From positions 13,590,347 to 13,654,346 of the forward strand of contig CAIIXF020000009.1 of the NCBI GenBank assembly GCA_903813345.2: a stretch of 64,000 nucleotides of DNA, in the 5' to 3' direction. Positions within the stretch are counted from its first letter, which is position 1; every line of letters starts with the position of its first letter. Made by a program: the position numbers and the translations under genes. A model generated the notes under the pieces. The model was not told the origin of the DNA, searched no databases, and saw nothing but the letters and a program-made list of their open reading frames with translations. The stretch comes from Owenia fusiformis (lineage: Eukaryota; Annelida; Polychaeta; Sabellida; Oweniidae). Below are positions 5,101 to 55,435 of this stretch, piece by piece.

Positions 5101-8100
5101 GCATATTTATCCTGAAAATTCCCTACCTAGAAACTGGCAAGATTGTTTGTGCTTGGAGTAAAACAAGAGAGAACTGTTTCAAATCCTTACTGCAAATGTG
5201 AGCAATATAATTATTCATGAACGAAAAAGACTTCTCGCAACCTTTGATCAGGATGTCATGTGTCAATCCACAAAAACAATCCACCAAAGACAAATAACCT
5301 TGCACACAATCAACACATTTTTTCTGAATGAACCAATATGAGTTGGATTTGACAAGGGGAGACAGTTCAGGTACTTGGCAGCACATGAAATGGCGAATTC
5401 CATTGGGCCTCAAAAAGTCTATGTCTGCCATTATTCCACTCATTGACAAGTTACACCTGGATTTCATGGAAGCAGGGGCAGAATTATAGCATGGGACAGA
5501 TGAAACTCATTTTCACAACTGATGAATGCACTCCTCAGTCTAATAGATGATCCTTTATTAATGTTATGTTGCTGTATGATAAATTCAGCAATGACACCTC
5601 AATCAACACTGCAAGAAAGAATACATTTTTACTAAAGACTACTTCATTATTGACCACATTCCTCCAACAGCTGACGCCTTAATGCAACACTGCAAGGGAG
5701 CATTGTACCAAGGTGTGCATATCTGAGGTCAGTTTAACAAACCAAGTCCTATCATTTCCCGGGTATCATTCCATCTTCAAAGAACTGGGGCTGGAGAACA
5801 GAGCCAAGAGACAACACTCAGAAGCCACACAGGACTACCTTAAAGCAGATGGCTGATGCTAGTCAACCATTAGTGTGGTTGTCAGAAGCAGTGTTTCCCA
5901 TGAAGATGTACCATGTACCAGCTTGAAGGCTACTCTAGTATGCACATCATTGTGTGCCTGCAATGGAGAGTATTCATTAGAATAACTAAAGTAAGGGTTT
6001 AAATATGGTAATACTAGGCCTATATAAGATGCAAGATACCCCCTATTTACCTCCCCCCCCAAATTTATATGGTTGACATCTTAGAGTTGGCATTCTGCTG
6101 TAAAATAATACTATAGAATAGTTTTTTATTATGCATGGTACATGATACAGATCAAATCTTGGCTCTCCAAACCATTACACGCTTCCTTCAACAGTTCAAT
6201 ATATTATAAAAACACAGTTTTGATTTTTAACAATTTCACCAATAGGTGGCGCTATGGGAGACATTCTTCATTATGTGTTTATCTAAATATTGTTTGGAAA
6301 GGAATCAGTTTCTACTAAAACATACAAACCTAATATATTCTGATGAAAAAAGGATAGAGATATGATAGGTACAGTACTACAGTATATATGAAATGTACAT
6401 ATTTTAATGATTTATCGAAAATTTGGACGAAATCTTAAAAATGGGGGGAATGAACAACCAAAATCTTCTTATTTGATAATTTAAATATTTTTCAGGGTAG
6501 AAATATTATAAATTGATGTTGAAAAATTCTAATTAACCACATTTTATTGAAAAAAAGGAATGAAAAAAATTATCAAATGAATATTATATAATTGTCGGCA
6601 ATTTTGGCGGCCATCTTGGATTTTCACCAAGAAGGAGTGCGAACCGCGCTTGGCAATGCGGATCAAAATTTTTAGAATGTCCATATTAGTCTATGTGCCA
6701 AAAATCTAAGAATATATATGATCGCGAACTATCGAGCCATTATTGACTGGGCTATATGGGGAAAAGCAGATCGAAAGTATAGAAAGTATAGAAACTATAG
6801 ACATCTGATTTGTCGAAGACAGTTATGGGGAAAAGCAGATCGAAAGTATAGAAAGTATAGAAACTATAGACATCTGATTTGTCGAAGACAGTTATGGGGA
6901 AAAACAGATCGAAAGTATAGAAAGTATAGAAACTATAGACATCTGATTTGTCTAAGACATTTCTTGGAAAAAGCAGATCGAATGCATCTGATATGTCGGA
7001 TACAGTTCTGGGAAATAGCAGATAGAAAGTATAGAAACTATAGACATCTAATTTGTCAAAGACAGTTTTGTGAAAAGCAGATAGAAAGTATATAAAGTAT
7101 AGAAACTGTATACATCTGATTTGTCGAAGACAGTTATGGGAAAAAGCAGATCGAAAGTATAGAAAGTATAGACATCTGATATGTCGAAGACAGTTCTGGG
7201 AAAAGCAGATAGAAAGTATAGAAAGTATAGAAACTATAGACATCTGATTTGTCTAAGACAGTTATAGGAAAAAACAGATCGAAAGTATAGAAAATATAGA
7301 CATCTGCTTTGTCAAAGGCAGTTAGTATGAAAGGGCATTTCGAAAGTATAGAAACTATAGACATCTGATTTGTCAAATGCAGTTGGTATGAAAAAGCAGT
7401 TCGAAAGTATAGAAAGTATAGAAACGTCGAAGGCAGATAGTATGAAAAAGGAGATCGAAAGTATAGAAAGTATAGACAATGTATAGAAAGTATAGACATT
7501 GCCATAATTCTGGATATACCTCTGTAGGGGGGGGAGGGTTGAGCCAAAAGTCTTAAGCCCGGTATACACCAATGGGGCAAGTTGGGACCTCCATAGACTT
7601 AACATTGCGTGGGACCTCGTGGGACCTTTTGGGATTTTGCCCCATGAAGTCCGTGGGACTCCATGGGACTCCGTGGGATTTTGCCCCATCTTGCCCCATC
7701 GAGTCCCATGAGGTCCCATGAAGTCCCACGTGGGACTCGGTGGGACTCGATGGGGCAAAATCCCACGAAGTCCCATGGGGCATCGTGGGATTTTCGATCA
7801 TATGACGTGTTGTGTGAAGCCCGGCATACACCAATGGGGCACGGTGGGATTTGATGGGACTCCATGGGGCTTGATGGGACTCCATGGGGCACGATGGGGC
7901 AAAGTCATCAAGGTCCCATGGGATTTCGTGGGATTCGATGGGGCAAATTGGGATTCGATGGGGCAAGATGGGACTCGATGGGGCAAGTGGGATTTTGCCC
8001 CATTGGTGTATACCGGGCTTTATTTAACTCGAACAAGTTACGTTATTTAAAGCGGGCGTCAAAGTGAATATAAACGTATTCGGAATGTATGTGAGCATCG

Positions 8101-9219
8101 CATGACTATTCGTGTGCCATTTTATCATTAACATGTAAAACATAAAATGTATGTGTCATGAGTAACAGAGTAATGTAAGTTTCAATGTGTTACTTACCAG
8201 AGAATTCCTCAGGATGTAAACGCTTGTAGGCTGCAAAGTAAATGAACGTAGTTAAACCACAAAAACAATGAGAAGAGTAAATAAATTGATATGTGACAGA
8301 TCTCCATAATGAAACTCTCTAGTTTGAACTACAAGTATGATTAATTATATATTGTTACTTACATGTAGGAAATGTTGAATCCACCTTACCTAATGTAGTC
8401 TTTATAAAACAAGTTGTACTATTTTGGTTTTGGAATAAACCTACATTTAGCCTTAATGCTACACAATGTCCGTCTTCCTAGAGAAACCTTTACTTACTGT
8501 CAAAATCATCCTGAAATAAGAACAACATATTTTCTCAAGTAAACAAGAATAAACAAATTGGGAACGTGTTTGCATTCAAATGCCATATTAAGCAGGCCCG
8601 TATCCAGGATTTGCCAAGGGGGGTTCACTTTTTGAAAATTTCCGGGGGGTTCACTTTTGACAATTTTGGTCCAAAAATGTCCAATATCACTTAAAATGTG
8701 CTCAGAATGATGAAAAACTGCATGATTTTGAAAAAACTTTTGGCCAGGGGGGGGGGGGTCGAACCTCCCTGGCTACGGGCCTGTTTAGTTTTAAAGCTAC
8801 AATCCAATTAAAGCTTAGGGGTACGTGAACGTGAATTGCATGACCCGATTTCCTGGTTGAATATACAGAAGTTTCGCAAATCGTTTTTTTTTGTAAATGG
8901 ATGATGACATTTATATTCATTGGCGTGTGTTGATTTTTGATTACATAGAGTGATGTTTAACGAGGCGAAGTTCTTTTTATTATCATGAAACGCATTACTA
9001 TGATATTAAACAATAAACATTTTTTACATGTCGACGCACGGAGATACAGATGAATGTGTTTTACCCAAAAAATAATTCTCGTGATGATACAATTAACTTG
9101 AAGTTAATATTTCCCTAAGTTTGGTGAGAATTGTTGATAGGGAATGGGGACATCAAAGATAAAATCATTATACTTACCGCAAAGGCCGTAGCCACAAGAA
9201 CTAGAAGTAACAGCTTCAT
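2063..9219 (-). CDS. Secreted astacin-like metalloprotease, N-terminal exons only (partial)
   Basis: Four exons join in frame: 9219-9178, 8510-8498, 8230-8198 and 2106-2063, each with canonical GT donors and AG acceptors. The product begins MKLLLLVLVATAFA, a typical signal peptide, continues DDFDTYKRLHPEEFSG, then KLEGDIAVRPGEEN. The EGDI stretch resembles the F/Y-x-GD 'aspartate switch' of astacin propeptides (blastula protease, meprin, tolloid-like), where the Asp caps the catalytic zinc. The family assignment rests on that short motif and is tentative; the protease domain would lie left of the window. Exon phases (0, 1, 1, 0) agree with one another, which makes chance unlikely. The 6.1-kb intron between exons 3 and 4 holds a foldback element and a MITE. 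Another secreted protein with a similar leader is possible. Confidence 0.5.
2595..2890. repeat. Left array of CTATACTTTC / GAAAGTATAG words
   Basis: Irregular repeats of ATACTTTCTATACTTTC run from 2595 to about 2820. A short stretch in the opposite orientation (CGAAAGTATAGAAAGTATAG, 2855-2880) follows, so this arm can form its own hairpin. Confidence 0.6.
2955..4080 (+). repeat. Direct duplication of about 560 bp
   Basis: Two similar copies lie in tandem, about 2960-3520 and 3528-4080. Both start TTCGGCACACAGACT, carry CAAGATGGCCGCC, and end with CATGCTGACCCAATTTGCTTATTCTTAA-type sequence. They differ at many points, so the duplication is not recent. Confidence 0.7.
4325..5960 (+). pseudogene. 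Decayed gene of an uncharacterised invertebrate protein family with a Cys-rich tail
   Basis: Shifting between the three plus frames gives ordered fragments of one protein: PDQTPVLAAEQPLFAMFKQ (4340s), LGGIHTEMGAFHILGNL (4450s), IATSGTADSFIKVNQLALT (4540s), FIRDMNQFNATHQSVLGEFI (about 4895-4955), then TADALMQHCKGALYQGVHI (about 5670-5725) and CTSLCACNGE (about 5940-5970). From memory of the family, this order matches a large uncharacterised protein common in cnidarian and other marine invertebrate genomes, often multi-copy, whose C-terminus carries CGCKK/CRGRCKC and LCxC motifs. Stop codons and frameshifts throughout show it is dead. It lies in the middle of a foldback element and may have been carried by it. 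Function is unknown. Confidence 0.6.
6760..7505 (+). repeat. Minisatellite, GAAAGTATAG...CATCTGATTTGTCGAAGACAG
   Basis: About ten copies of a 60-70-bp unit run in tandem. Each reads roughly GCAGATCGAAAGTATAGAAA, a few more GAAAGTATAG words, ACATCTGATTTGTC, then GAAGACAGTTATGGG. Long readable frames across it are by-products of the repeat and are not genes. It is the right inverted arm of the foldback element. Confidence 0.85.
7556..8019. mobile_element. GGGACT-word MITE with TTA target duplication (Harbinger-like)
   Basis: Inverted termini are AGCCCGGTATACACCAATGGGGCA. TTA lies directly outside both ends (7553-7555 and 8020-8022), as expected of a PIF/Harbinger-type 3-bp duplication. The whole interior is variants of GGGACTCGATGGGGCA and GGGATTTTGCCCCAT in both orientations. 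A second terminus-like sequence, AGCCCGGCATACACCAATGG, lies at about 7818, so the copy is composite. No transposase is present. A degraded relative lies at about 47,360-47,820. Confidence 0.75.
8198..8230 (-). CDS. Astacin-like gene, exon 3
   Basis: The 33-nt exon lies between TTACTTTGCAG and GTAAGTAAC. It contributes the end of the Thr codon and YKRLHPEEFS, and ends in phase 1. Confidence 0.5.
8498..8510 (-). CDS. Astacin-like gene, exon 2 (13-nt microexon)
   Basis: The 13 bases GATGATTTTGACA lie between a CTTATTTCAG acceptor and a GTAAGTAA donor. They encode DDFD plus one base and are needed to keep exons 1 and 3 in frame. Confidence 0.45.
8594..8783. mobile_element. Small repeat with AGGCCCGTA(T/G)CCAGG inverted ends
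   Basis: Ends AGGCCCGTATCCAGG and CCTGGCTACGGGCCT are imperfect inverted repeats, and the interior contains GGGGGGTTCACTTTT and poly-G runs. Related edge sequences (TAGCCAG plus a G run) occur near 2550, 14,870, 40,670 and 46,620-46,960. Confidence 0.5.
9178..9219 (-). CDS. Astacin-like gene, exon 1 (signal peptide)
   Basis: ATG at 9219 opens 14 codons, MKLLLLVLVATAFA, ending exactly at a GTAAGTA donor. A Lys followed by a Leu/Val core and an Ala-x-Ala end is a textbook secretory signal with predicted cleavage at the exon junction. Confidence 0.6.
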
Positions 9220-9289
9220 GACCAACATTCAAGGAGATACCACACAAAACTAAAAACTAGGATTGGTCTGGGTGTTATTATACGAAAAA

Positions 9290-9765
9290 GGCTTTGTAGA
9301 AAGAACCTCCTACCTCATACCCACCTACGTGGGACATGATACGGTCATTGAAGGGTTCAATTTTAAAGATTTTTAATCTCAAAATAGCTCTAATTATTAA
9401 CATTTCTACAATTCCGGCTTTATTTTACCACTGGACAGATGATAGATCCATAAATAAAGGCATATGGGTGATTTGTAATGTGTAATGACCCGAGGGCGCC
9501 ACAGGGGAATAATTAACTAACGACCGCGAGCATAGGTCCAACAAGCCAGATAAAGAAATTGAAAATTTGCTAAATTCGATGCCCCAAGTGGGAACCGAAC
9601 CCAGCTGGGGTGTAGTAGCAACTTTCTATCAAGGGTTATGCACTATAATTCATCATAAACTATGATTTAATAAACAAAGATCTTTAAAATTGAACCTTTC
9701 AAAGACTGTATCATGTCCAACGTACGTGGGTAGGTGAGTATGAGGTTTATTACACAAAGCTTACA
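9290..9765. mobile_element. Foldback MITE, about 85-bp arms
   Basis: The left arm GGCTTTGTAGAAAGAACCTC...ATTTTAAAGAT (9290-9378) is inverted at about 9680-9765. A partial relative of the same family lies at 43,228-43,450, sharing CTACGTGGGACATGATAC, AAGGGTTCAATTTTAAA and a central AAAGCCGG(A)ATTG segment. No coding potential is seen. Confidence 0.6.
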
Positions 9766-11462
9766 AAAATGCTCCATCCCATTCAGAAACCATTCAAAAT
9801 GGTTTGTTACAATATTTCCCATATATAGATTCATAAGGTGAAAATATTCATTTCTTTTTTACAACAAACGGATCTATTGATAAGAAGTGTATTTTAAGAT
9901 TAAATTTACTACAGCTCAAAAACAGATTTCAGTTCAAAAATTATTCTCACAGTTACATTAAAACAGAATAGGTGAACATACAACTATTTTTGCAAAGCTG
10001 AATTGTCTTGCTATAAATCTATTTGGTAGCGATGACTGGTATATTGTTGATATTGCCCATTTCCATCTCTATGTTTTTTGTTCAAGTAACCCCGTTTTTT
10101 AATTGTGATTCCTGGATTTCTTTCTTTCCACACCAATCTTTGAAAACTGCTTCTGTAAACCTTTGTAAAATAGGCGGCTGTCTGTCATGTAAGAAACAAC
10201 GAAGACCTCATTGTGAACCCATGGAATGCTCTGGTGATGATTTAGTAGGGGATTTCATTTTTCAGACTTTTTTCTAATCAAGTTTGTAATTTGCTCACTT
10301 GGTCCCCTGGCACTGTCTCTGAACTTTGTCACAAATCAAAGACATATTGATCTGCCTAATAGGTGAATTTGATGAAAATCACTGAACATGGGTCCCAAAC
10401 ATGATGAATTGACACCTTCTGCAATTTTTAGATGACAATCAACATGGAAGTGAATATGCATCAGAAACTGCAGCGGGGCTCTAAAATTTGATACGGCTGG
10501 CATTTTTTGTTCTTGCTTTCTTCTACCAGGAGACCAACTGGGCAAATCAATAACTTGATCAGAAAAGTCCCAAAAAGACGAGCTATAATTTAGTTTAATC
10601 AACTTAAGTACATATAACCATTATAACTGATGGATAAAGCAAACTACTAATCCAAGGACATTTCCAATGGTATATCAACTCCTAACCTTAATAGCATTGG
10701 GGCCATAAATGTTTTGTTATCAATCTCATTACTAAATTAGGAGATAAAGATGTAATAAACATATATTTAGGAGTAATTTTTTCTGTTTTTATTACAAAGT
10801 TTAAAAGGGCAGTGTAGTGACTTTAACTCTGATTCTTCAATAACCCAATGTTTTTTTCAATTCATTAAACATTCTGTAACTAGCATCATCAAGAAAATGT
10901 TATCACTTTCTTTTCTGTAATATCAAAGTCTGAAAAATTGCTGACCAGCTACTTCATAATTTATTTTTCAAAAACCAACCTGATAATACTGCAAACCTCA
11001 TATATTGTTTATTAAAGAAATAATTTATTCCAATATTTGATTTTTCAGAAAGTATCAGATAATATAAATTACATGTTGCTGATATTTTGTTGCTGATATT
11101 TTGGTAAAGAAATTGTTGTAATCGTAAATATTAGGGCTAAAGATAAATCATTTTGACAATACATGTTTTAACCAATGTTTTTAAATTGTTGTTATATCTT
11201 TCTTTAAATACAATTCATGAAATATTTCCATTCAGATCAATTTAAGTTAGTACCATTGTACTTTGGAAGTCTCATATTCTGCAATTTGGCGTATCATATT
11301 GGATACCTTCCAATCGTAGACATGCATGTTATCAGAGTGTCCATTCAAAGGCATTCATCTCATCATTACTTTCTGTTGGCAATGCACATAAGATGAGATT
11401 AGATTCCAGTATAATTCATGAATTGCAATAATGTGTGTCCATGTAGCATGTGCACCGTGATG
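9766..11462. other. Flank downstream of PDAP1, no gene recognised
   Basis: This AT-rich stretch lies between the foldback MITE and the PDAP1 stop codon and should hold the PDAP1 3' UTR. Possible minus-strand AATAAA signals occur near 10,960 and 11,025, but I cannot choose between them. Confidence 0.35.
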
Positions 11463-31156: not shown

Positions 31157-31955
31157 ACCCTACTATCACACCAAACTAGTTCTCACTACGTTCTCAAAAA
31201 CGGGCTTCAACTGTGTACGAACGGACTGGACCTACTAAGAACCGTTTGGGATCTATTAACAAACTTCATCGAACGTACTCGAACGGGTAGGTCCTCTAGA
31301 ACTTGGACAATGCTCAAAATATTCTCGTGGTCGTCACGTTCTACAATTAGAACGAGTGACAACGTACTAACGACGAGCTGGACGTACTACGAACGGAACC
31401 GTCGTACTTCAATCCTACTAGGGACGTTTTAACAACGAGTTGAATTGTCTGAGGACGTGTTGAGAACGAGGTAGAACTAATTGCAAACGGATTTATACTG
31501 ATTGAGAACGTATTTAACACTGCTTATGAACGAGTTAGCAAAAATATAGCTATCACACCAAACAAGTTGCCACTGCGTTCTTCAAAACTGTGTGCGAACG
31601 GAATGAACGTAGCTGCAACTTTCTAAGGTCTATTTACGAACTTTACGATCGTTCTCAGACGGGAATGTGATTTTAGAATTTTGAATCGATTTAAAATTCG
31701 ATGGCGACCATAACGTTCTGTAATCAGGTCATGTTGACCTTCTAGACTAAGGGACGCGTTCTACTACGTTGCACACCGACGTGGTGCGACCTGAACGAAC
31801 TGCGAACGAGAAGGACGTATTGAAGACTGTTTAAGAACGAAGAAGCTAATTATTTCAGACATATTTCCCGACCACAGCCAGATTGAGCCCGTTTTACGAC
31901 GTTTTCGTAGGACTGGCAAGAACGGGTAAGAACGAGTTTGGTGTGATAGGGGGGT
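31157..31955. mobile_element. AACG-word MITE, copy A
   Basis: Ends (A)CCCTACTATCACACCAAACT and the inverse. TAA flanks the left and TTA the right, compatible with a TA or TWA duplication. The interior is largely short words such as ACGTTCT, GAACG and ACGAG. Copy B (54,635-55,435) is the same size in the opposite orientation. No transposase. Confidence 0.75.
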
Positions 31956-34287: not shown

Positions 34288-35704
34288 AGGTACGTTCACA
34301 CCAACGGCGCTTTGATGGCGCTTTAAAGCGGCTTGTAAAGCGGCACCAAAGCGTAACAAAGCTTAATTAAAGCGTCGGGGTCGTAATAGGTCGTAGAAAA
34401 GCTCGGGAGTAAAGCGGGATATTCGGCAAGAGCGCTAAAAAATTTAAACTGTTTAAGCGTTCGCACCAACGGCGCTTTGATGGCGCTTTAAAGCGGCTTG
34501 TAAAGCGGCACCAAAGCGTAACAAAGCTTGATTAAAGCGTCGGGGTCGTAATAAGTCGTAGAAAAGTTCGGAGTAAAGCGGAATATTCGGCAAGAGCGCC
34601 AAAAAATGTTAAACTGTTTAAAAATTTTGGGCGTTCTGTTACGAATTGCTTAAAGCGCCGAGAGCGTATCAAAGCTTAAAAACCGTAACAAAGCTCAGCA
34701 AAGCTTGACCCAAAGCGTAGGAAAGCTTAACAGAGCTTGGTTTAAAGCGGGGACCCCAGTCTCTTCACGGTCTGTTATCACTTTACACGCTTCGTTAAGA
34801 TGCCTCAGGATTTGTTACGATCTGGCATGAAGATCTGACACGAGGTCAGACGCTTTCATCAATATCTGACACTCTTTGTTACGCTTTCATGAAGGACTCT
34901 CAAGCTTTCCAGCAAATTGAGACGCTTACATCAGGAATTGAAACGCTTTGTTAGGCTTTGTTACGCTTGACAAGCTTCCTCATACTCTCTCACGCTCTTT
35001 CACGCCGTGCGTCAAACGTCATGTCTTATTCAGATAGGTCATGCTCTGGTCCATCTGGAATTTATGGATCTTGTTGTTCTGCCATCGTGTTCTCGAGTCA
35101 AAGATGCAATGGTTTTATGGATATACTGCATCTTTATATAGTCATTGGATCAAAAGCGGCATGAAATCGGCGATCTCGACATTTTCCAATGCGTGACAGA
35201 GCTTAACAGAGCGTAACAATGGACAACAGAGCTTGACAATCGTATCAGAGCCTGATTCAAAGCGTCATCATCGCATCAAAGCGTAATAATGCTTATCAAA
35301 GCATGATTTCAAGCGTAACAAAGCCTGGTCACAGCGTGAGGAACCTATCAGCGCTATGTTAAGCTTTCCTACGCTTTGGGTCAAGCTTTTCTGAGCCTTG
35401 TTACGGTTTGTTCAAGTTTGATACGCTCTCGGCGATTTAATCAATTCGTAGCAGAGCGCCCAAAATTTTTAAACAGTTCAAATTTTTTTTGCGCTCTTGC
35501 CGAATATCCCGCTTTACTCCGAGCTTTCCTAAGACCTATTACGACCCCGCCGCTTTAATCAAGCTTTGCTACGCTTTGGTGCCGCTTTACAGGCCGCTTT
35601 AAAGCGCCATCAAAGCGCCGTTGGTATGAACAACAATGACAAAAGTGACGGCGCTTTGTTCGCCGATTTAAAGCGTGGCATTCGCCGTTGGTGTGAACAT
35701 AGCT
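34288..35704 (-). mobile_element. AAGCG-word element a
   Basis: Termini AGGTACGTTCACACCAACGG and CCGTTGGTGTGAACATAGCT. Flanked by TTAA-type sequence and directly followed by element b. The body is words such as CAAAGCG, AAAGCTT and their inverses, with a unique core at about 35,010-35,165 holding TATA (35133-35140) and ATG (35085). In this copy the frame MAEQQDP meets a stop at codon 8. Confidence 0.75.
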
Positions 35705-35708
35705 TTAA

Positions 35709-37126
35709 AGCTACGTTCACACCAACGGCGCTTTGATGGCGCTTTAAAGCGGCTTGTAAAGCGGCACCAAAGCGTAGCAAAGCTTGATTAAAGCGTCGGG
35801 GTCGTAATAGGTCGTAGAAAAGCTCGGGAGTAAAGCGGAATATTCGGTAAGAGCGCTAAAAAATTTAAACTGTTTAAGCGTTCGCACCAACGGCGCTTTG
35901 ATGGCGCTTTAAAGCGGCTTGTAAAGCGGCACCAAAGCGTAACAAAGCTTGATTAAAGCGTCGGGGTCGTAATAGGTCGTAGAAAAGTTCGGAGTAAAGC
36001 GGGATATTCGGCAAGAGCGCCAAAAAATTTTAAACTGTTTAAAAATTTTGGGCGTTCTGTTACGAATTGATTAAAGCGCCGAGAGCGTATCAAAGCTTAA
36101 AAAACCGTAACAAAGCTCAGCAAAGCTTGACCCAAAGCGTAGGAAAGCTTAACAGAGCTTGGTTCAAAGCGGGGACCCCAGTCTCTTCACGGTCTGTTAC
36201 CACTTTACACGCTTCGTTAAGATGTCTCAAGATTTGTTACGATCTGGCATGAAGATCTGACACGAGGGCAGACGCTTTCATCAATATCTGACACTCTTTG
36301 TTACGCTTTCATGAAGGACCCTCAAGCTTTCCAACAAATTGAGACGCTTACATCAAGAATTGAAACGCTTTGTTAGGCTTTGTTACGCTTGACAAGCTTC
36401 CTCATGTTCTCTCACGCTCTTTCACGCCGTGCGTCAAACATCATGTCTTATTCAGATAGGTCATGCTCTGGTCCATCTGGAATTTCAGGATCTTGTTGGT
36501 CTGCCATCGTGTTCTCGAGTCAAAGATGCAATGGTTTTATGGATCTACTGCATCTTTATATAGTCATTGGATCAAAAGCGGCATGAAATCGGCGATCTCG
36601 ACATTTTCCAATGCGTGACAGAGCTTTACAGAGCGTAACAATGCACAACAGGGCTTGGCAATCGTATCAGAGCCTGATTTAAAGCGTCATAATCGCATCA
36701 AAGCGTAATAATGCTTATCAAAGCGTGATTTCAAGCGTAACAAAGCCTGGTCAAAGCGTGAGGAACCTATCAGAGCTATGTTAAGCTTTCCCACGCTTTG
36801 GATCAAGCTTTTCTGAGCTTTGTTACGGTTTGTTGAGCTTTGATACGCTCTCGGCGCTTAATCGAAATTGTAACAGAGCGCCCAAAATTTTTAAAAAGTT
36901 TAACATTTTTTGGCGCTCTTGCCGAATATCCTGCTTTACTCTGAGCTTTTCTACGACCTATTACGACCCCGACGCTTTAATCAAGCTTTGTTACGCTTTG
37001 GTGCCGCTTTACAAGCCGCTTTAAAGCGCCATCAAAGCGCCGTTTGTATGAAGAAAAATGACAGAAATGACGGCGCTTTGCTCGCCGATTTAAAGCGTGG
37101 CATTCGCCGTTGGTGTATACGTACCT
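35709..37126 (-). mobile_element. AAGCG-word element b
   Basis: Left end AGCTACGTTCACACCAACGG, right end with GTGTATACGTACCT, then TTA. Core with TATA (36555-36562) and ATG (36507) reading MADQQDPEIPDGPEHDLSE before a stop. Confidence 0.75.
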
Positions 37127-37977
37127 TTAGTTCAACGCTGTGCCGTAAAGCTACGTTCACACCAATGGCGCTTTGATGGCGCTTCAAAGCGGCTTGTAAA
37201 GCGGCACCAAAGCGTAACAAAGTTTGATTAAAGCGTCGGGGTCGTAATAGGTAGTAGAACAGCTCGGAGTTAAGCGGGATATTCGGCAAGAGCACTAAAA
37301 ATGTAAACTGTTCAAGCTACGTCCGCACCAACGGCGCTTTGATGGCGCTTTAAAGCGGCTTGTAAAGCGGCACCAAAGCGTAACAAAGCTTGATTAAAGC
37401 GTCGGGGTCGTAATAGGTCGTAGAAAAGCTCGGAGTAAAGCGGGATAATCGGCAAGAGCGCCAAAAAATGTTAAACTGTTTAAGAATTTTGGGCGCTCTG
37501 TTACGAATTGATTGAAGCGCCGAGAGCGTATCAAAGCTTAACAAACCGTAACAAAGCTCAACAAAGCTTGACTCAAAGCGTAGGAAAGCTTAACAGAGCT
37601 TGGTTCAAAGCGGGGACCCCAGTCTGTTCACGGTCTCTTACCACTTGACACGCTTCGTTAAGATGTCTCAAGATTAGCTACGATCTGGCATGAAGATCTG
37701 ACACGAGGTCAGACGCTATCATCAATATCTGACACTCTTTGTTACACTTTCATGAAGGACTATCAAGCTTTCCAACGAATTGAGACGCTTTAATCAAGGA
37801 TTGAAACGCTTTGCTGTACGCTTGACAAGTTTCCACACGCTATATCACGCCGTGCGGCAAACGTCATGTCTTCTTCAGATAGGTCATGCTCTGGTCCATC
37901 TGGAATTTCTGGATCTCGTTGTTCTGCCATCGTGTTCTCGAGTCAAAGATGCAATGGTTTTATGGATCTACTGCATC

Positions 37978-37985
37978 TTTATATA
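37978..37985 (-). promoter_or_regulatory. TATA box of the element c micro-gene
   Basis: On the minus strand CCAATGACTATATAAAGATG lies about 48 bases upstream of the ATG at 37,930. The same arrangement is kept in elements a, b and d. Confidence 0.55.
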
Positions 37986-38306
37986 GTCATTGGATCAAAA
38001 GCGGCATGGAATCGGCGATCTCGACATTTTCCAATGCGTGACAGAGCTTAACAGAGCGTAACAATGCACAACAGAGTTTTGCAATCGTATCAGAGCCTGA
38101 TTTAAAGCGTCATAATCGCATCAAAGCGTAATAATGCTTATCAAAGCGTGATTTCAAGCGTAACAAAGCCTGATCAAAGCAAGATCAAAGCGTGAGGAAC
38201 CTTTTAGAGCTATGTTAAGCTTTCCTACGCTTTGGATCAAGCTTTTCTGAGCTTTGTTACGGTTTGTTAAGCTTTGATACGCTATCGGCGCTTAATCGAT
38301 TCGTTA

Positions 38307-39629
38307 AGGTACGTTCACACCAACAGCGCTTTGATGGCGCTTGAAAGCGGCTTGTAAAGCGGCAACAAAGCGTAACAAAGCTTGATTAAAGCGTCGGGGT
38401 CGTAATAGGTCGTAGATAAGCTCGGGAGTAAAGCGGGATATTCGGCAAGAGCGCTAAAAATTTTAAACTGTTTAAGTGTTCGCACCAACGGCGCTTTGAT
38501 GGCGCTTTAAAGCAGCTTGTAAAGCGGCACCAAAGCGTAACAAAGCTTGATTAAAGCGTCGGGGTCGTAATAGGTCGTAGAAAAGTTCGGAGTAAAGCGG
38601 GATATTCGGCAAGAGCGCCAAAAAATTTTAAACTGTTTAAACATTTTGGGCGTGGACCCCAGTCTCTTCATGGTCTGTTACCACTTTACACGCTTCGTTA
38701 AGATGTCTCAGGATTTGTTACGATCTGGCATGAAGATCTGACACGAGGTCAGACGCTTTCATCAATATCTGACACTCTTTGTTACGCTTTCATGAAGGAC
38801 TCTCAAGCTTTCCAACAAATTGAGACGCTTACATCAAGAATTGAAACGTTTTGTTATGCTTTGTTACGCTTGACAAGCTTTCTCATGCTCTCTCACGCTA
38901 TTTCACGCCGTGCGTCAAACGTCATGTCTTATTCAGATAGGTCATGCTCTGGTCCATCTGGAATTTATGGATCTTGTTGTTCTGCCATCGTGTTCTCGAG
39001 TCAAAGATGCAATGGTTTTATGGATCTACTGCATCTTTATATAGTCATTGGATCAAAAGCGGCATGAAATCGGCGATCTCGACATTTTCCAATGCGTGAC
39101 AGAGCTTAACAGAGCGTAACAATGCACAACAGAGCTTGGCAATCGTATCAGAGCCTGATTTAAAGCGTCATAATCGCATCCAAGCGTAATAATGCTTATC
39201 AAAGCGTGATTTCAAGCGTAACAAAGCCTGATCAAAGCGGGATCAAAGCGTGAGGAACCTATTAGAGCTCTGTTAAGCTTTCCTACGCTTTGGATCAAGC
39301 TTTTCTGAGCTTTGTTACGGTTTGTTGGGCTTTGATACGCTCTCGGTGCTTTAATCAATTCGTAACAGAGCGCCCAAAATTTTTAAAAAGTTTCAAATTT
39401 TTTGGCGCTCTTGCCGAATATCCCGCTTTACTCTGAGCTTTTTTACGACCTATTACGACCCCGACGCTTTAATCAAGCTTTGTTACGCTTTGGTGCCGCT
39501 TTACAAGCCGCTTTAAAGCGCCATCAAAGCGCCATCAAAGCGCCGTTGGTATGAAGAAAAATGACAAAAATGACGGCGCTTTGCTCGCCGATTTAAAGCG
39601 TGGCATTCGCCGTTGGTGTGAACGTAGCT
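38307..39629 (-). mobile_element. AAGCG-word element d, nested in c
   Basis: Ends AGGTACGTTCACACCAACAG and GTGTGAACGTAGCT. The c sequence resumes after it with TAACAGAGCGCCC. Core with TATA (39036-39043) and ATG (38998), stop at codon 8 as in element a. Confidence 0.75.
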
Positions 39630-40261
39630 TAACAGAGCGCCCAAAATTTTTAAAAAGTTAAACATTTTTTGGCGCTCTTGCCGAATATCCCGCTTTACTC
39701 TGAGCTTTTCTACGACCTATTACGACCCCGACGCTTTAATCAAGCTTTGTTGCGCTTTGGTGCCGCTTTACAAGCCGCTTTAAAGCGCCATCAAAGCGCC
39801 GTTGGTATGAAGAAAAATGACAAAAATGACGGCGCTTTGCTCGCCGATTTTAAGCGTGGCATTCGCCGTTGGTGTGAACGTACCTTAAGTGGCAGTGGTG
39901 TATCGTTCTGTTGTTACTTTGTTTCAACATTAAGTCCAATATTGTAGGTGACATTTCCTTTATACTTCTTACAAAACATGCGGTAGGACTACAACAGTAG
40001 GTATGGTAGTCTTTTGAGGAAGATGGGTGATTCTCACTTATACGCACATGGGCGAAAAATAAGAGGTAAAATAACAGACGAAATTAACCCTTCTTTCAGT
40101 TATACGCCCAGGGCTTATATGCGAGAAAATCTGGTATAACTGTTTTTTATGTCTCTGTCCACGTCCAGAGATATAATATCCAGTTTCTTACTAGGGTATT
40201 GAGTTTAGTTTTTTTTCAAATACACGAGCCCTTGTGAATTTGTTCCATCGTAAAGACATAT

Positions 40262-48476: not shown

Positions 48477-51400
48477 TTACTTGGCATCACCTTTCTTTTG
48501 GAACCATTTCAGTAAATCATTTTTATTTCTCAGTATTTTATGAGTGTCAACAGTAAGGTTCATTTTGTTTAGGAATTCACCCCATGGATTCATTAGTTCA
48601 TTATCATGGCTCATAAGTAGATAACTAAATAGCTGTTTGTTATTAAATTGTATAAATTGTTCTTTAATCTGTCTTATACCAGAAATAAAGTCTTTACGTA
48701 TATTTATAAGTTTTTCATAGTTGCATTCGAAAAGTACATGGTACTCATCACCAATTTCTTTGGAGTCACATAAATAGCAATATCGCTTTTCTTTAGCAAT
48801 TTTGAATCTCCTTCCCATTTCTATAGGAAAGTTATGACATGAGATCCTAGTCCTTGTTATAGCCTTTCTGTGGGAATCATTATTAATATTAAGGTATTTC
48901 TCTTGTTTATACATTTTCTTTACTGTTCTATACACTCTGGTTTTAGATGGTATATTTTCAGCTACATTGATTTTTTGAAAGAAAAGTTCTTGATATTTAT
49001 TAAATAATTTGTTTTTCAAGGTTTTGATTAATATGCTTGCATCTGTTTGATCAAAAATATCTTTATCTTCTATAAAAGTTGATATTCCACAGAAGTCACA
49101 GATAGCCTTTACAACAGTATAATAATTCGAGGTATTGTTGGCAATATCTAGAGTTGTTACTTTCGAAATCAGTGAAGTTTTGGGAGCTTTCCTAGCGTGT
49201 ACCCAATATTTTATGATCCCAATACAGATATTAATAAATAAGGGATACCTTCCCAATTCAGATTTAGCTAGTATGTTTGTACATTTTGAATTAACTTGTA
49301 GTATGAATTTGCAAAATTTTGTATGCAGTTGTTCAAATGGGAGTTTGTCATTTAATAACATTTCTTCTATGGATTTAGATTTCCAATTAAATCCATATGC
49401 GCCCCATATCTCTGAGCCATATAATGATATTGGTTTTATGAGGGAATCATAAAGCTTCATTTGTATCCTTACTGGCATTCTATAAAAACTTTGTTTAATG
49501 GCAAAATGAGCTTTCATTGCCTTACTATTCAGTAAATTCATGGCTGATACAAAAGAACCATTTTTCTTAAAGGTGATGCCAAGGTATACATAACTTTTAG
49601 TTTCAATAATCTTATTATTACCAAAATAAAATACATGGTTCGTACTAGTGGTATTAAAGACCATAACTTTTGTTTTACTAAGATTAACCTGTAATTTCCA
49701 GTCAGAACAATACTTTCTAAATGCATTTAAGCAGTTCTGTAGGCCAGACTCTGATGAACTCATAAGTACAATATCATCGGCAAAGGCCAGAAAGTTTGTG
49801 GATATATCATCTAATCGTATAGCTTTACATTTTTTCTTACATAAGTATGATTCTAAATCATTTATAAATATATTCAGCATTGTGGGACTGAGACAGTCAC
49901 CTTGCCTTGTACCAACCGTGGTTTCAAAATATTCTGTAAATACCTTGTTACCATTAGCATCAGCACACTTAACTCGTGACTGTGTACATGCATACATGTT
50001 TTGCACTATTCTGATAAATTGAGAGCTAATACCACTTTCATACATTTTAAAGAATATACCATTTCGCCAGAGTGAATCAAAACACTTCTTTAGATCCACA
50101 AAACATGTGTACAGTTTCTTTTTCTGAGACTTAAATTTTCTAATAATAAAATTAAGAACATATATGTGATCCGTACATCTTTTGTTTTTTTGAAAGCCTA
50201 TTTGATTGGCAGTCAATACATTTTCCATTGTGAGATATTTGTTTAATCTATTGTTCATTATTGAGGTAAATACTTTTCCTAGCAAGCTGGATAGAGTGAG
50301 GCCTCTATAGTTTTTAGGGTCTAATGTGTTGCCTGATTTAAATATTGAAACTATATCTCCTCGTGACCACATTTTAGGAAAATGTGTTGAATTAATGATT
50401 AAGTTAAAAAGCCTTAGTATGGGAGTTGTCATATGTTGTAGAGCACACTTGATCATGTTATTGTTTATTCTATCTGTGGCACCTGATTTAGTTAACTTTA
50501 GCTCTTTGCACACTTCCAAAATTTCACAAGTTTTGATATTTTCATCAAGAACTTCAATTTTGTTTTGATCATGTAACATTATATTGAGTTTTTCCTCAAC
50601 AATTTTGTCTATATTTGTATTGTGGTCATTTATCTGCATATCCATGTTGCTTAGATCTTTAAAATAATTAAGCCATATCTCAGGATCAATAGCATCAGCT
50701 TTGTTGTTTTTCTGCTCTTCATTTCTAATTTTATTAACAATATTCCAAAATTCTTTAGGGTTAGATTTGTCCATTGCCTCAATTTTTTCAAGTAGGTTTT
50801 TCTTAAACATTTTTTGAGTTTTACGTACAAGTTGTTTGTATCGTTTCTTGTCATGACAAAATTTACCCCTTAGATAGGAGTCTTTAGGGTGTTTTTGAAC
50901 CAATTTGCCAAGGTATATTATTTGTTTCTTTGCAAGATCACAGTCTCTATTGAACCAAATTTTTCCTCGATTTTTCTTTTTACTCCTTATTTTTAGTGCA
51001 ATTGTTGAAGCTTTGTTGAAAATATTGGTAATTTTTTCACAGCACATGTCTACTCCATCTTGGGAGGATTCAAAATGTACATTATTAAATTCATCAATGA
51101 TATGTTTATTGGCTTCAATTGCTCTTATAAAGCACGCCTTTGAGTCAATACCCCAATGAAATTCTGCATCATTTTTTGTAAGGGTATTGGAGTTGATTTT
51201 TGTTTGAATTAAGACTTTTTCTGGGAGTTCAAAGCTTGTACTGATCATTGCATGATCAGATAAATGGTTAGGTGGGTATACTTTGAAGATTGATATATTT
51301 TGTAATAGGAGTTCACTGGCTAAACAGTAATCTACTGTACTACACCCATTTTCTTTAAAGCATGTGTATTGACCCAAGTAATCACCCAGTGTTCTACCAT

Positions 51401-52076
51401 TTAAGATTCTTATTTGGCATGTATGACATAGCTGAATTAAGGATTTACCATACGAGTTCAATTTTGTATCTCTATTTAATCTTTGATTAATTGGCAGATC
51501 AACATTATATTGAACATTATTTATAGGTAAGTGGTTATTACAGTCATCTACGATAAAATCATTTAGATTTGAAGTCCGTGCATTGAAGTCACCCATTATA
51601 ATAATTTGTCCAGAGTCTGAGTATTTTCTTATACTGTTCTCTAAGAGATTAAATGCATTGTTATCCATCATATATGTAGAGTTTTGTGGAGGAAAATATA
51701 CACCACATATAAATATGTCATTCACGAGATTAAAGTTAGATTTCTTAATTTTTAACCATACACATTCTTCAGTTTTTTCTACAATAGATATGCCTGATTT
51801 AATGTTTTCTTTAATCAGTACTGAAATCCCACCAGAGTTTCGTTTAGCCGATTTAGCTTTTTCCCGTATTATATTATAGCAAGAGAAGTCTTTGAGATTA
51901 TCGATGGCTTTTGAAAACCATGTTTCACACAGAAATACAATATCATGATGTTTAATCATGCTATAAAAACTAGGATCTTCCATTTTTGTTCTACTAAGAC
52001 CTTGTATATTCCATCCTGCTATCTTTAAAGATGCTTTGCAATGAACTTTTGGGAATTTAAGACTCTTATTTGTCAT
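48477..52076 (-). CDS. LINE ORF2: AP-type endonuclease and reverse transcriptase
   Basis: From the ATG at 52,076 the frame runs 1,199 codons without interruption. Residues about 18-285 form an exonuclease-endonuclease-phosphatase domain: GWNIQGL, LCETW, GVYFPP, MGDFNAR, VDYCLAS and LSDHA carry the expected Asn, Glu, Asp and His. The reverse transcriptase spans about 570-850 with NYRGLTLSS, DLKKCFDSLWR, GTRQGDCLSP and the catalytic LAFADDIVLM near 770. Near 1,100 lies CYLCDSKEIGDEYHVLFEC, a C-x2-C-x9-H-x4-C zinc-knuckle-like motif. The enzyme nicks target DNA and primes reverse transcription there. Two in-frame codons before the ATG are not start codons in eukaryotes. The uninterrupted frame implies recent activity. 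Exact clade (L2, CR1, Daphne) is uncertain. Confidence 0.93.
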   Translation of the reverse strand: MTNKSLKFPKVHCKASLKIAGWNIQGLSRTKMEDPSFYSMIKHHDIVFLCETWFSKAIDNLKDFSCYNIIREKAKSAKRNSGGISVLIKENIKSGISIVEKTEECVWLKIKKSNFNLVNDIFICGVYFPPQNSTYMMDNNAFNLLENSIRKYSDSGQIIIMGDFNARTSNLNDFIVDDCNNHLPINNVQYNVDLPINQRLNRDTKLNSYGKSLIQLCHTCQIRILNGRTLGDYLGQYTCFKENGCSTVDYCLASELLLQNISIFKVYPPNHLSDHAMISTSFELPEKVLIQTKINSNTLTKNDAEFHWGIDSKACFIRAIEANKHIIDEFNNVHFESSQDGVDMCCEKITNIFNKASTIALKIRSKKKNRGKIWFNRDCDLAKKQIIYLGKLVQKHPKDSYLRGKFCHDKKRYKQLVRKTQKMFKKNLLEKIEAMDKSNPKEFWNIVNKIRNEEQKNNKADAIDPEIWLNYFKDLSNMDMQINDHNTNIDKIVEEKLNIMLHDQNKIEVLDENIKTCEILEVCKELKLTKSGATDRINNNMIKCALQHMTTPILRLFNLIINSTHFPKMWSRGDIVSIFKSGNTLDPKNYRGLTLSSLLGKVFTSIMNNRLNKYLTMENVLTANQIGFQKNKRCTDHIYVLNFIIRKFKSQKKKLYTCFVDLKKCFDSLWRNGIFFKMYESGISSQFIRIVQNMYACTQSRVKCADANGNKVFTEYFETTVGTRQGDCLSPTMLNIFINDLESYLCKKKCKAIRLDDISTNFLAFADDIVLMSSSESGLQNCLNAFRKYCSDWKLQVNLSKTKVMVFNTTSTNHVFYFGNNKIIETKSYVYLGITFKKNGSFVSAMNLLNSKAMKAHFAIKQSFYRMPVRIQMKLYDSLIKPISLYGSEIWGAYGFNWKSKSIEEMLLNDKLPFEQLHTKFCKFILQVNSKCTNILAKSELGRYPLFINICIGIIKYWVHARKAPKTSLISKVTTLDIANNTSNYYTVVKAICDFCGISTFIEDKDIFDQTDASILIKTLKNKLFNKYQELFFQKINVAENIPSKTRVYRTVKKMYKQEKYLNINNDSHRKAITRTRISCHNFPIEMGRRFKIAKEKRYCYLCDSKEIGDEYHVLFECNYEKLINIRKDFISGIRQIKEQFIQFNNKQLFSYLLMSHDNELMNPWGEFLNKMNLTVDTHKILRNKNDLLKWFQKKGDAK

Positions 52077-52510
52077 TGTCAATTGTGTTTCTAATAGATT
52101 TCAAATTGATGGCAAGATGGAGTAATAGGCCTACTAGAAGTACAATGTACAAAATGTTAACAGGAGAGATATCTTCAGCAGAAGATCTTACAAACATACA
52201 TATTTACATATAGACATGGGACTATTAAGAATTATATGTTATCATTACAAATAGGTTGATAACCAACTTCTAATAAGAAAATACAGCCATTGATGGTTCG
52301 AATTTTCCTATTAGGGTGAGCTGAATTAACTGTTTTGTGCACTACAAAGTATATGTACTATTAAGCGCATGGAGAAATCAGAGGTAATATATTGTACATG
52401 CACTTGTTTCCAAAAATTGTTCAATCAAAGTACATGTACTTAGTGCATAGATAAATCAGTAGCAATATATAGTACCTCTAACTGTAACTTTTGTATTTTA
52501 TATACATATA

Positions 52511-53605
52511 CTAATTAGTTGTGACTTGAATGTTGGGTTTCCAGATGTGTGGCTCCTGAGCCAAGTACCCTTGTACTCTCTGAACTGGGTAATTATGTAC
52601 TCCCTGTACTGGGGTTACTTGTGCTCCTTGAGTAGGATATAGTTGGGGTAGTTGGGTATTGGCTGCCATAGGTAAATGTTGCATATTTTGCAAGAATGGG
52701 TTTTGTACATAGTAATGCTGAGTTGGTTGTTGCCAGTTATTGATATAGGGGATATTCATATTGGGTACATTCTGCATTTCACTGGCACCATTTTGTTGCA
52801 CTAATGGCCGTTGATTAGTATAATCCCCATTCACATAATTAGATGGCTGTGATGTATCCTGTGATTTATCAGATTTATCCTGTTGGTGTTTGGGCTGAGA
52901 TTGCTCCCCATTTATAATGGCACTTTGGGTTGCTGTCATGGAGTCTTGCATGACTTGGGGATTGGCATTGTTTGGAAATTCATGCTTGGGCTGTGGGCGT
53001 TGAGGCCGCTGTGGGCGTGGCCTAGGTCTTGTCGAGTTCACTCTGCGGTCATCAAATTCCCTGTTGCTGGGCTGGACATAGTGGCGTATAACCATGGCTA
53101 GTTTTATCCATCCCGATTTGGTGGGGTGGGAGCCATGTTCTTGTACATATATTCCAGGGGAGGACTTTATAAAACTTGTGTATGTGTCAATATATGACAA
53201 CTTGTCTACTAGATTGCACATATTTTGTATAGCATAATTTAGGGCTGTGATGTCATCATTGCTGACATGATCATATCGGGGTAGAACACTGCAGGCATAT
53301 ATATTGGCATGTGGGTCTTTCAATTGTATTGTGTGTATCAAGTCATTATATTTCCCCACTGTCGATTGTACACTTTGGTTGTCAGCCAGATGGTTAGTGC
53401 CAATGGCTATTATATAGTTATCTTTGTGTACTTCAGAGTTCTTTAGCTTGTCAATTGCTTCATCCAATGTGTACGCAATTGTTTTGCTGATGGTTTTACC
53501 CTTCAGTATGAGTCTTTTGTCGATGCGTTTTGCTGTAGAGTCGTGAATCAATACAGTATCCGTTTGATTTTCTGAGTCACTTATAGTCACTATTGCTGAC
53601 CACAC
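52511..53605 (-). CDS. LINE ORF1: SGNH/GDSL-esterase-like protein, 5' truncated
   Basis: An open frame of about 364 codons precedes ORF2. The N-terminal half is SGNH-hydrolase-like: VLIHDSTAKRID in place of GDS (block I), IIAIGTNHLAD (GxN, block III) and HGSHPTKSGW (block V, with His where Asp is usual). The C-terminal half is Pro/Gln/Asn-rich with RPRPRPQRPQRPQ, typical of a disordered RNA-binding tail. Esterase ORF1s are known in CR1/L2-type LINEs. There is no ATG at the start: the frame begins with codons from the flanking foldback arm (a GTG at 53,605; a TAA lies at 53,621-53,623), so the true N-terminus was lost at insertion. Confidence 0.75.
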   Translation of the reverse strand: MWSAIVTISDSENQTDTVLIHDSTAKRIDKRLILKGKTISKTIAYTLDEAIDKLKNSEVHKDNYIIAIGTNHLADNQSVQSTVGKYNDLIHTIQLKDPHANIYACSVLPRYDHVSNDDITALNYAIQNMCNLVDKLSYIDTYTSFIKSSPGIYVQEHGSHPTKSGWIKLAMVIRHYVQPSNREFDDRRVNSTRPRPRPQRPQRPQPKHEFPNNANPQVMQDSMTATQSAIINGEQSQPKHQQDKSDKSQDTSQPSNYVNGDYTNQRPLVQQNGASEMQNVPNMNIPYINNWQQPTQHYYVQNPFLQNMQHLPMAANTQLPQLYPTQGAQVTPVQGVHNYPVQRVQGYLAQEPHIWKPNIQVTTN

Positions 53606-54634
53606 ATACCCTAAACGGTTTTATGGGGTATGGCAATGATAAGGTGTAAAAATATAAAATGGTAGATAATGAATATGTTTAGCATATAATGATGTCACAT
53701 ATAGTGTTAAGATTTATTTAGAATAACACTTTTTGCTATAATGATGCACATTTTCTATTTGACCCTAGCAACAAGTTCAACAACTGAAGTGTTATGTGCC
53801 ACGTCCCCTTTCTTGAATTTTTAGGGGAAGGTAAAGAGAAAAATCAGAAAAATAGATACTTGCACTTTTTATTGAAACTTATTCAAGAAATATTTGCTAA
53901 CATCATCAGTGAAGTTTTAAATTAGGTTTTATACACCATAGGCCCCTACTGTTTTTTAAACGACTGATTAACTATCGACTGATTAAGAAATTTTGAAGAG
54001 AAATTATGTACTTTTAGGGACAAATTATCCCATATCTCAACCAAATTTTGTTGGTTAAGACCGAAACTTTCAGGAATTCTTCATACATGCCTTATTGATA
54101 TATTGACAATGTTTCATATAATTGCAACATCCTGAAATGAGATATTAATAGTTTCAAGCATATGGTCAAATTCAGACTCAAAAATAATAAAATTTGCTGA
54201 CTCAGCACTTTTGAGCCTGCTTTGCAAGGGTTCACAAACTTTTTTTACATGCCTTGGGGTCCCCTACAAGAATCTAAAGTCAAATTGAATCTAGGTGTTT
54301 TGGACACAAATCGCTTTGGCCGTAGTACTTGTTATTGTTATAATGGGTAAGAAATAGAATATTGAATATTGACTCGCAAGAAACGCTCTTGTATCAGCCT
54401 CTATAGGGCAAGGAACAAAACTGTCGTTCGCTTTATTTATGAAACCAATGAAAGTGTAAAAGATAGCAATGAAGAGGCAAAAGAAGATTAAGGATTAAGT
54501 ACTGATGAAGATGACAAAATTAATGACAATGAATCCGGGTTTCATTTTTGAATCAGGTTCGCGTAACCGTCCATCAATTTTTCACGTTACCGCAAATTCA
54601 AAATACATTATTTTGGCTTGAGTAGAACATATTA

Positions 54635-55435
54635 CTCCCCTATCACACCAAACTAGTTCTTACCCGTTCTTGCCAGTCCTACGAAAACGTCGTAAAACGG
54701 GCTCAATCTGGCTGTGGTCGGGAAATATGTCTGAAATAATTAGCTTATTCGTTCTTAAACAGTCTTCAATACGTCCATCTCGTTCGCAGTTCGTTCAGGT
54801 CGCACCACGTCGGTGTGCAACGTCGTAGAACGCGTCCCTTAGTCTAGAAGGTCAACATGACCTGATTACAGAACGGTATGGTCCCCATCGATTTTGAATC
54901 GATTCAAAATTCTAAAATCACATTCCCGTCTGACAACGTTCATAAAGTTCGTAAATAGACCTTAGAAAGTTGCAGCTACGTTCATTCCGTTCGCACACAG
55001 TTTAAAACCAGTTTTGAAGAACGCAGTGGCAACTTGTTTGGTGTGATAGCTATATTTTTGCTAACTCGTTCATAAGCAGTGTTAAATACGTTCTTAATCA
55101 GTTTAAACCCGTTTGCAATTAGTTCTACCTCGTTCTCAACACGTCCTCAGACAGTTCAACTCGTTGTTAAAACGTCACTAGTAGGATTGAAGTAGGACGG
55201 TTCCGTTCGAAGTACGTCCAGCTCGTCGTTAGTACGTTGTCACTCGTTCTAATTGTAGAACGTGACGACCACGAGAACATTTTTGTTTCAGTTCTAGAGG
55301 ACCTACCCGTTCGAGTACGTTCGATGAAGTTTGTAAATAGGTCCCAAACGGTTCTTAGTAGGTCCAGTCCGTTCCTAAACAGTTGAAGCCCGTTTTCGAG
55401 AACGTAGTGAGAACTAGTTTGGTGTGATAGTAGGG
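54635..55435. mobile_element. AACG-word MITE, copy B
   Basis: 801 bp, inverted relative to copy A. TTA flanks both sides (54632-54634 and 55436-55438). The empty site is visible in copy 2 of the host element (inverse of 15,860-15,900 reads GTAGAACATATTAAGTGG), matching the interrupted sequence here. Non-coding. Confidence 0.8.

Follow-up and report, generated by a model that had tools for sequence, protein, structure and literature searches.

Helix-phased words in three Harbinger-like MITE families of Owenia fusiformis

What are short words repeated throughout the interior of a mobile element for, and what moves the elements that carry them? The question is raised by a 64,000-nucleotide stretch of the genome of the annelid Owenia fusiformis (contig CAIIXF020000009.1, positions 13,590,347 to 13,654,346; hereafter the window), in which three families of miniature inverted-repeat transposable elements (MITEs), F1, F2 and F3, share the core ACACCAA near their ends and are each rich in a short word. 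The original prediction, made from the letters of the window, was that one Harbinger-type transposase reads the core while the word content diverges between families like dialects, perhaps binding a second protein or spreading by gene conversion. The window and the assembly (498 Mb, 525 contigs) were searched; places outside the window are given as numbered loci (L) or by contig (C) and position. The words were found to recur about once per helical turn (10.2−10.8 bp), a spacing absent from the original prediction. The best explanation of F1, F2 and F3 is that they are non-autonomous elements of the PIF/Harbinger superfamily, and on balance we lean towards reading their words as helix-phased arrays of putative binding sites for a transposon protein.

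The three families and their common core were confirmed, with GGGAC words in F1, AACG in F2 and AAGCG in F3. The F1 element spans 464 bp (7556..8019, plus strand), with TTA on both sides as target-site duplication and TGGGAC/TGGGGC words at 10-bp spacing. Two F2 copies with AACG words measure 797 bp (31158..31954, plus strand, flanks TAA and TTA) and 801 bp (54635..55435, minus strand, TTA duplicated on both sides). F3, with AAAGCG words and an outer duplication of TAA, lies at 34288..39885. While the families stood, their coordinates needed adjustment, since the first F2 copy starts at 31158 and F3 is a cluster of several adjacent or nested elements, not a single one; in the copy at 54635, CTCCCCTATC forms the outer end and CCCTACTATC the opposite one. 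The ends of all three families read as predicted, with ACACCAA ten bases in and TWA (TTA or TAA) flanks. The window contains 31 instances of the core, whereas shuffled versions average 12.45 and none of 100 reached 31; 17 occurrences fall within F1−F3 and 14 elsewhere. Genome-wide, F1 ends gave 279 and 282 matches at no more than two mismatches (561), F2 ends gave 1382 and 1386 exact matches (2768), and 150 places were scored of 318 first-look F3 candidates. Chance sharing of the core was ruled out by the identical 7-mer at an identical offset in three high-copy families. Two facing F2 ends lie 4.15 kb apart at C1:16159224-16163375, perhaps a longer F2 element.

Word counts in the window copies were compared with their average over 100 dinucleotide shuffles; the figure in brackets is the highest count that a 4-mer of any kind attained in a shuffle. 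TGGG/CCCA was found 38 times in F1 against 15.4 (34), AACG 32 times against 14.7 (24) and 31 times against 14.8 (26) in the two F2 copies, and AAGC 71 times against 25.4 (56) in the first F3 copy of the cluster (copy a). The interiors are rich in a short word, as had been claimed. Words on the same strand were spaced by 10/20/30/40 bp in F1 (TGGG), 10/21/31/42 bp in F2 (AACG) and 10−11/20−22/32/41−44 bp in F3 (AAGC). When the 4-mer autocorrelation was scanned with no fixed band, two F2 and two F3 copies peaked at 10.1−10.6 bp, and none of 200 shuffles was as strong. The phase of word centres on both strands was also compared with random positions, and agreed within about 2 bp. The agreement (R) was 0.58 over 1.4 kb in F3 (0/300 random sets as high) and 0.51 in F1 (1/300).

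A coding partner was identified for F2. This element of about 5.62 kb (C8:36401971-36407588; L048 and adjoining L051) is flanked by TAA on both sides and comprises, in order, an F2 end (CCCTACTATCACACCAAACTAG), about 500 bp of AACG words, a transposase, a gene on the opposite strand, further words with an internal end copy, and an F2 end. Its left end is 83.6% identical to the first window copy and 80.3% to the second, each over 299 bp; for its right end the values are 89.2% over 399 bp and 87.8% over 476 bp. The transposase matched DDE_Tnp_4 (PF13359, 1.9e-31), with its reading interrupted between two long frames, by either an intron or damage. A second, broken copy of the partner is present at C1:25061308 (L076). 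Since the coding element has the same ends and words, the F2 MITE is an internal-deletion derivative of a Harbinger-type element. The predicted Harbinger-type assignment is thus demonstrated for F2, and is likely for the other two families.

The second gene of the partner we call Myb/SANT-like by look and place. AAC[GT]G is the classical Myb site, and it was enriched in F2, the F2 partner and the ends of T2, a related lineage described below (12 against 5.0, 9 against 3.1, 12 against 4.2 and 13 against 3.4). It was dropped as a general word, there being no enrichment in F1, F3 or the further lineage T. Weak matches to the second gene (30−31%, E about 0.003) were seen at C1:42019538, C8:31383675 and C4:15690375. 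Each of them is 2−5 kb away from a T copy or a piece of a T transposase; a gene of this kind may therefore belong to longer T elements. A gene of this type (51% over 41 aa) is also located at C3:18945263 (L101), 2.6 kb from an F1 end. It was rejected as an F1 partner, as the 3.1 kb around it held no F1 end and the known F1 end lay outside that stretch.

Three further transposase lineages share features of the ends. Element T (L036) is 3087 bp long with HARBI1-like exons, one of which matched DDE_Tnp_4 at 1.5e-9; T2 was found at L045, L046, L047 and L073, and T3 at L049 and L074. Both ends were read for T, and for T2 and T3 the transposase-upstream end with its left flank. Following TWA, the ends read AGCCCCCC-TCACATATG in T, AGTAGCGG-TCACACTAG in T2, CACCCCAG-TCACATTTG in T3, CCCTACTA-TCACACCAA in F2, AGGTACGT-TCACACCAA in F3 and AGCCCGGT-ATACACCAA in F1. 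These correspond to a wider signature, TWA-N8-TCACAY, of which ACACCAA is the F1−F3 form and from which F1 departs at two positions. The T and T2 transposases are about 61% identical in one exon, and that of the F2 partner is about 45−55% identical to those of T, T2 and T3 over at least 100 residues, with at most 73% in short pieces. Because the signature is common to four lineages (the F2 partner, T, T2 and T3) at about 45−61% identity, it is the mark of a superfamily branch and not of a single enzyme. The claim that one transposase reads the core was accordingly not supported as stated.

A narrower form of that claim, that all three families are moved by the F2 partner's transposase through ACACCAA, is possible but somewhat unlikely. 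CCAA follows ACA solely in F1−F3, the corresponding bases being TATG in T, CTAG in T2 and TTTG in T3. F2-type genes exist at C8 and, in broken form, at C1:25061308, and the search found no transposase gene bounded by F1 or F3 ends, so that both families could still be moved by the F2 enzyme. Set against this, the outer eight bases differ among the three families. The start of a gene within F3 had no tblastn match in the F2 partner (matches not itemised), a hint that F3 may have its own coding partner. The target-site duplications differ as well. They matched in five of eight F1 copies and in three of four F3 rows, the fourth not being a true pair, whereas TWA flanked each side of all 14 F2 copies with the middle base equal in seven and different in seven. 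These 14 comprise the window copies at 31158 and 54635, L006, two in L077, eight in L079-L094 and the F2 partner; a degenerate F2-like copy in L007 was left out. A 2-bp TA duplication for F2 does not suit all the copies, in that the base beyond TA at the CCC ends, which would be free under a TA rule, gave TWA at every end. The 3-bp TTA/TAA duplication of PIF/Harbinger was observed. F2 elements were also seen back to back (L095 and L096, at C1:591880 and C1:5176620, and C1:11161629/11161647), with a single shared TTA in L096.

The genome-wide search found no F1 or F3 transposase; one first-look list scored 150 of 269 candidates, so such enzymes may exist and their absence is unproven. No convincing TWA ends were seen at the strong PF13359 loci L008-L023 (16 loci) and L039-L044; L045, from the same search, is T2. 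T had been suspected as the F3 partner from F3 words abutting it in L001 and L002. It was ruled out because T has its own ends inside F2 in L036 and splits F3 in L053/L097 and L061/L098.

The helical spacing extends to the related coding elements. In a 10-bp band, none of 200 shuffles was as strong as the left and right ends of the F2 partner, the left and right ends of T, or the left end of T2 (one copy each), compared with 47, 150, 119 and 36 of 200 for coding or middle segments. Phase agreement in T2 reached 0.72 (0/300). The T words are CGAA (16 against 7.5 and 12 against 5.3), and those of T2 are AACGG (10 against 2.3) and GAACG (9 against 2.0), the latter also an F2 word. The dialect idea therefore holds in part: word content differs among most lineages, but T2 carries words of the F2 type.

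If words arose by copying of a unit, the bases beside them should be shared as well as the words. Such an origin, by slippage, unequal exchange or gap repair, would make the words functionless by-products of mutation and their helical spacing a favoured unit of about 10 bp. Lengths were paired among the matches listed (the first 100 for each end, leaving out one 59-bp F1 pair and F2 pairs above 1 kb). In this set, F1 length was 2 modulo 10 in 22 of 32 pairs and in 7 of 16 length classes, and the whole F1 10-mer was informative, both as expected of a copied unit; F2 had an identical span (804 bp between pattern ends) in 16 of 33 pairs. The 60-bp tandem repeats of Medicago MtPH-A6-4, linked by their authors to abortive gap repair (PMC2213677; published work is cited here from excerpts), point the same way. 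In F2, T and T2, however, most bases beside the words carried 0−0.5 bits compared with 1.7−2.2 within the word, unlike copies of one unit, and the words keep phase despite alternating orientation. The predicted spread by gene conversion therefore fits the 10-bp length steps of F1, which suit gain and loss of units, while the little sequence shared by F2, T and T2 spacers argues against unit copying there.

Divergence between copies also bears on the by-product reading. Among F3 copies, spacers have changed about three times as much as the words. Between L024 and window copy a, 7 of 292 word positions and 77 of 1112 spacer positions differed, and between L024 and L001 the counts were 4 of 246 and 66 of 971 (shift control 0.001 in both). 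With words defined in reverse, the differences were 6/298 versus 78/1106 and 6/259 versus 64/958 (shift control 0.000 and 0.005). For L024 and the window F3, the alignment in unreversed orientation was left out, that orientation being the wrong one. That F3 words diverge less although many hold CpG speaks against the words being by-products of mutation, an origin we regard as unlikely. In F2, words defined in the partner were more conserved than spacers in two comparisons (2/62 versus 28/219, 0.014; 2/64 versus 45/374, 0.016), and words defined in the MITE in one (5/67 versus 36/208, 0.036). The F2 MITE had more word positions than the partner in four of four comparisons. Between T2 copies there were too few changes for the comparison.

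The spacing could alternatively serve DNA shape, through rotational setting of nucleosomes or bending for end pairing, with word identity of minor importance. The periods of 10.0−10.8 bp in the phased segments would suit this, and the mPing authors suggested nucleosome effects of internal sequence (PMC9921582). What recurs, however, is an exact short word and not plain A/T-G/C alternation, and in F3 the exact words are conserved, so that this explanation appears quite improbable.

A further observation concerns the places into which T has inserted. Of 30 T places found, 28 were examined, two fragmentary ones being excluded. At 23 of them, the left end and its flank could be read (a flank of 42 bp in L065 and of more than 100 bp elsewhere); five were dropped, since the stretch contained no junction in L052, L056 and L063, and the left end was truncated in L062 and L003. 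TWA was present at 21 of the 23 left junctions (exceptions L050 and L070). T lies inside F3 at four junctions (L001, L002, L053 and L061) and inside F2 at one (L036). It sits at the exact F3 edge in L058, about 20 bp beyond an F3 end in L059, next to or near a segment like the F2 partner in L055 (47 bp), and near a T2-like segment in L070 (131 bp long, with 46 bp between it and the junction). The remaining 14 of 23 junctions had no match to these elements. Both F3 sides could be read around T, with TAA duplicated, in L053/L097 and L061/L098; the duplication in L036 was less clear. The expected number of F3 hosts was 0.02−0.07 (P 6e-9 to 6e-7, depending on the assumed copy number), and that of F3 and F2 hosts together was 0.12 even at 1000 F3 copies (P 1e-7). 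TWA density was 103.8 per kb in F3 versus 104.1 in background, and that of TTAA was 30.9 versus 15.9. Flanks of F1 fell in these elements in 2 of 17 cases (both in L030, F1 beside F1; many F1 flanks were shorter than 100 bp) and flanks of F3 in 1 of 10 (the window cluster), each match being to the same family.

These results can be joined in one account, in which protein binding, cooperativity, selection and targeting are what we infer from the arrangement of the letters. Each word would be a site bound by a protein that the transposon encodes, most likely the second one, of Myb/SANT type, which characterised PIF/Harbinger elements require. With one helical turn between them, the sites would lie on one face of the DNA, allowing many copies of the protein to align, bring in the transposase and hold the two ends together. 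Elements whose sites are more numerous and better phased would move more, and as a proposed consequence words would be conserved relative to spacers and MITEs would come to be made of words, the spelling drifting along with the protein of each lineage. The protein coat may also make the arrays attractive to other transposition complexes, and this would account for the landing of T in F3 and F2. The full proposal, offered tentatively and at less than even odds, is a Harbinger code: phased words on one face are read by the element's protein, MITEs become arrays, the spelling diverges, and foreign Harbinger complexes use the arrays as landing pads.

A number of observations weigh against the binding-site account. 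The scan with no fixed band is by itself indecisive, because the right end of T (peak at 10.0 bp) was matched by 4 of 200 shuffles and one of two plain window stretches by 3 of 200 (at 8.65 bp; the other, 140/200). In the same scan, the left end of T peaked at 10.3 bp (0/200) and its gene at 17.35 bp (14/200), and its middle gave 183/200. The best unconstrained period of F1 was 9.25 bp (0/200), probably from a 4-bp phase jump, as the commonest F1 distances are 10 and 20. T3 ends were unphased in the 10-bp band (111/200 and 81/200). Phase agreement was weaker in an F2 window copy (R = 0.48, 8/300), in the left and right ends of the F2 partner (0.64, 10/300; 0.51, 49/300) and in the left end of T (0.63, 22/300). 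The overlap between T2 and F2 words means that spelling is not strictly one per lineage, and F1 has no CpG word. For F2, two comparisons with partner-defined words were weaker (6/62 versus 35/213, 0.131; 4/69 versus 45/369, 0.071), and MITE-defined words were no more conserved than spacers in three of four (6/71 versus 24/210, 0.350; 10/86 versus 37/352, 0.673; 9/80 versus 40/358, 0.577). The second gene of the partner had no match in a Pfam search (best E 0.05−0.1, to unrelated families). None of the 16 flanks of eight F2 copies lay within these elements, so nesting is shown for T only. Effects of mPing internal sequence were judged by the authors not to be sequence-specific (PMC9921582).

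Within the window, each of F1, F2 and F3 also contains an internal copy of its own end, which had not been predicted. In F1, this copy (AGCCCGGCATACACCAATGGGGC) is at 7818..7840 on the plus strand, with its core at 7828. The first F2 copy holds one (CTATCACACCAAACAAG) at 31550..31566 on the plus strand (core at 31555), present too in the right end of the coding partner, and the second holds one at 55033..55049 on the minus strand (core at 55044). In F3, a degenerate GTTCGCACCAA is found at 34459. The inner ends of the F3 cluster, near 35704/35709, 37126/37149, 38307 and 39629, delimit copies on the plus strand. Copy a (34288..35704) measures 1417 bp; copy b (35709..37126) begins 4 bp past its end (TTAA, 35705−35708); copy c with nested F3 material occupies 37149..39885, with an extra end at 38307 and an inner right end at 39629. 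About 30 bp (GTTCTGTTGTTACTTTGTTTCAACATTAA) are directly repeated on either side of the cluster (34252−34287 and 39903−39936), outside the 3-bp duplication.

The F3 gene-start remnant, at 37815..37990 on the minus strand, consists of a TATATAAAG box and an ATG (37930) opening MAEQRDPEIPDGPEHDLSEEDMTF. Similar starts occur at 35085, 36507 and 38988, some with early stops. A TATA-box promoter and ATG with a short coding start (MAEQRDPEIPDGPEHDLSEEDMTFVARRDIACEN...) were also seen in F3 at L001:4373 and L002:593. No open frame longer than 87 aa was found among the 150 places scored of 318 genome candidates, and many of those 150 had a frame of 41 aa. The gene start was therefore abandoned as a handle on a coding copy, one copy with the 87-aa frame reading through words on examination.

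The findings bear on how PIF/Harbinger transposases recognise their own ends and why some MITEs burst. The coding element and MITE pair, together with the related lineages, supplies phased candidate sites that can be counted in studies of recognition, cross-mobilisation and MITE success, and the insertion of T into word arrays points to targeting as a further possibility.

Among known systems, the elements resemble PIF/Harbinger and Tourist-like MITEs (mPing/Ping/Pong, Harbinger3_DR) in their 3-bp TWA duplication and short inverted ends, and in the DDE_Tnp_4 transposase, the second gene in the F2 partner and the high-copy deletion derivatives. To our knowledge, no rule holds that all PIF/Harbinger elements carry the motif G(N)5GTT. 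This plant-type terminal inverted repeat motif, a search criterion for Medicago elements (PMC2213677), was not present, the ends here being N8-TCACAY. In a reconstructed zebrafish Harbinger, the ends are bound by a Myb-type protein that also interacts with the transposase, and a Myb-domain mutation in rice ORF1 abolished excision (PMC2836001). Helix-phased arrays go unmentioned in the excerpts of mPing and Harbinger accounts compared, and the ends here are TWA-N8-TCACAY.

Two loci of another PF13359 lineage, L020 and L021, have open frames of 577 and 419 aa, and we take them to be ISL2EU-type elements. ISL2EU elements make a 2-bp TA duplication. L020 and L021 share PF13359 with the F2 partner and differ in their TA duplication and TTCACCTTTCCCCAAAGTC ends; the duplications of F1, F3 and T are of 3 bp (TWA).

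The nearest precedent in the published work compared is Medicago MtPH-A6-4, in which 60-bp repeats, each with a triplicated 12-bp motif, can fill the element (PMC2213677). Those are tandem repeats in one subfamily, unlike the short words, largely unrelated spacers, helical phasing and several lineages described here. Many short transposase-binding sites inside the ends are known from Galileo, a Foldback-like element with multiple THAP sites in its long ends (PMC3688188), and from the subterminal sites of maize Spm (cited in PMC9921582), and the putative sites here are alike in this. Both belong to other superfamilies, binding was shown there whereas here it is read from sequence, and no helical phasing is stated for them in the excerpts. 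Coral CMITEs (PMC2872659) are alike in having a distinctive internal region per MITE family and tandem MITE arrays; they are piggyBac-related, and their internal region is conserved across families while the ends vary, the reverse of the present case. Among the titles and abstract openings listed, none described helix-phased words in Harbinger elements. The superfamily is known, and what is new here is the phasing, the coding partner of F2, the phased words of T and T2, the wider end signature, the conservation of F3 words and the nesting of T.

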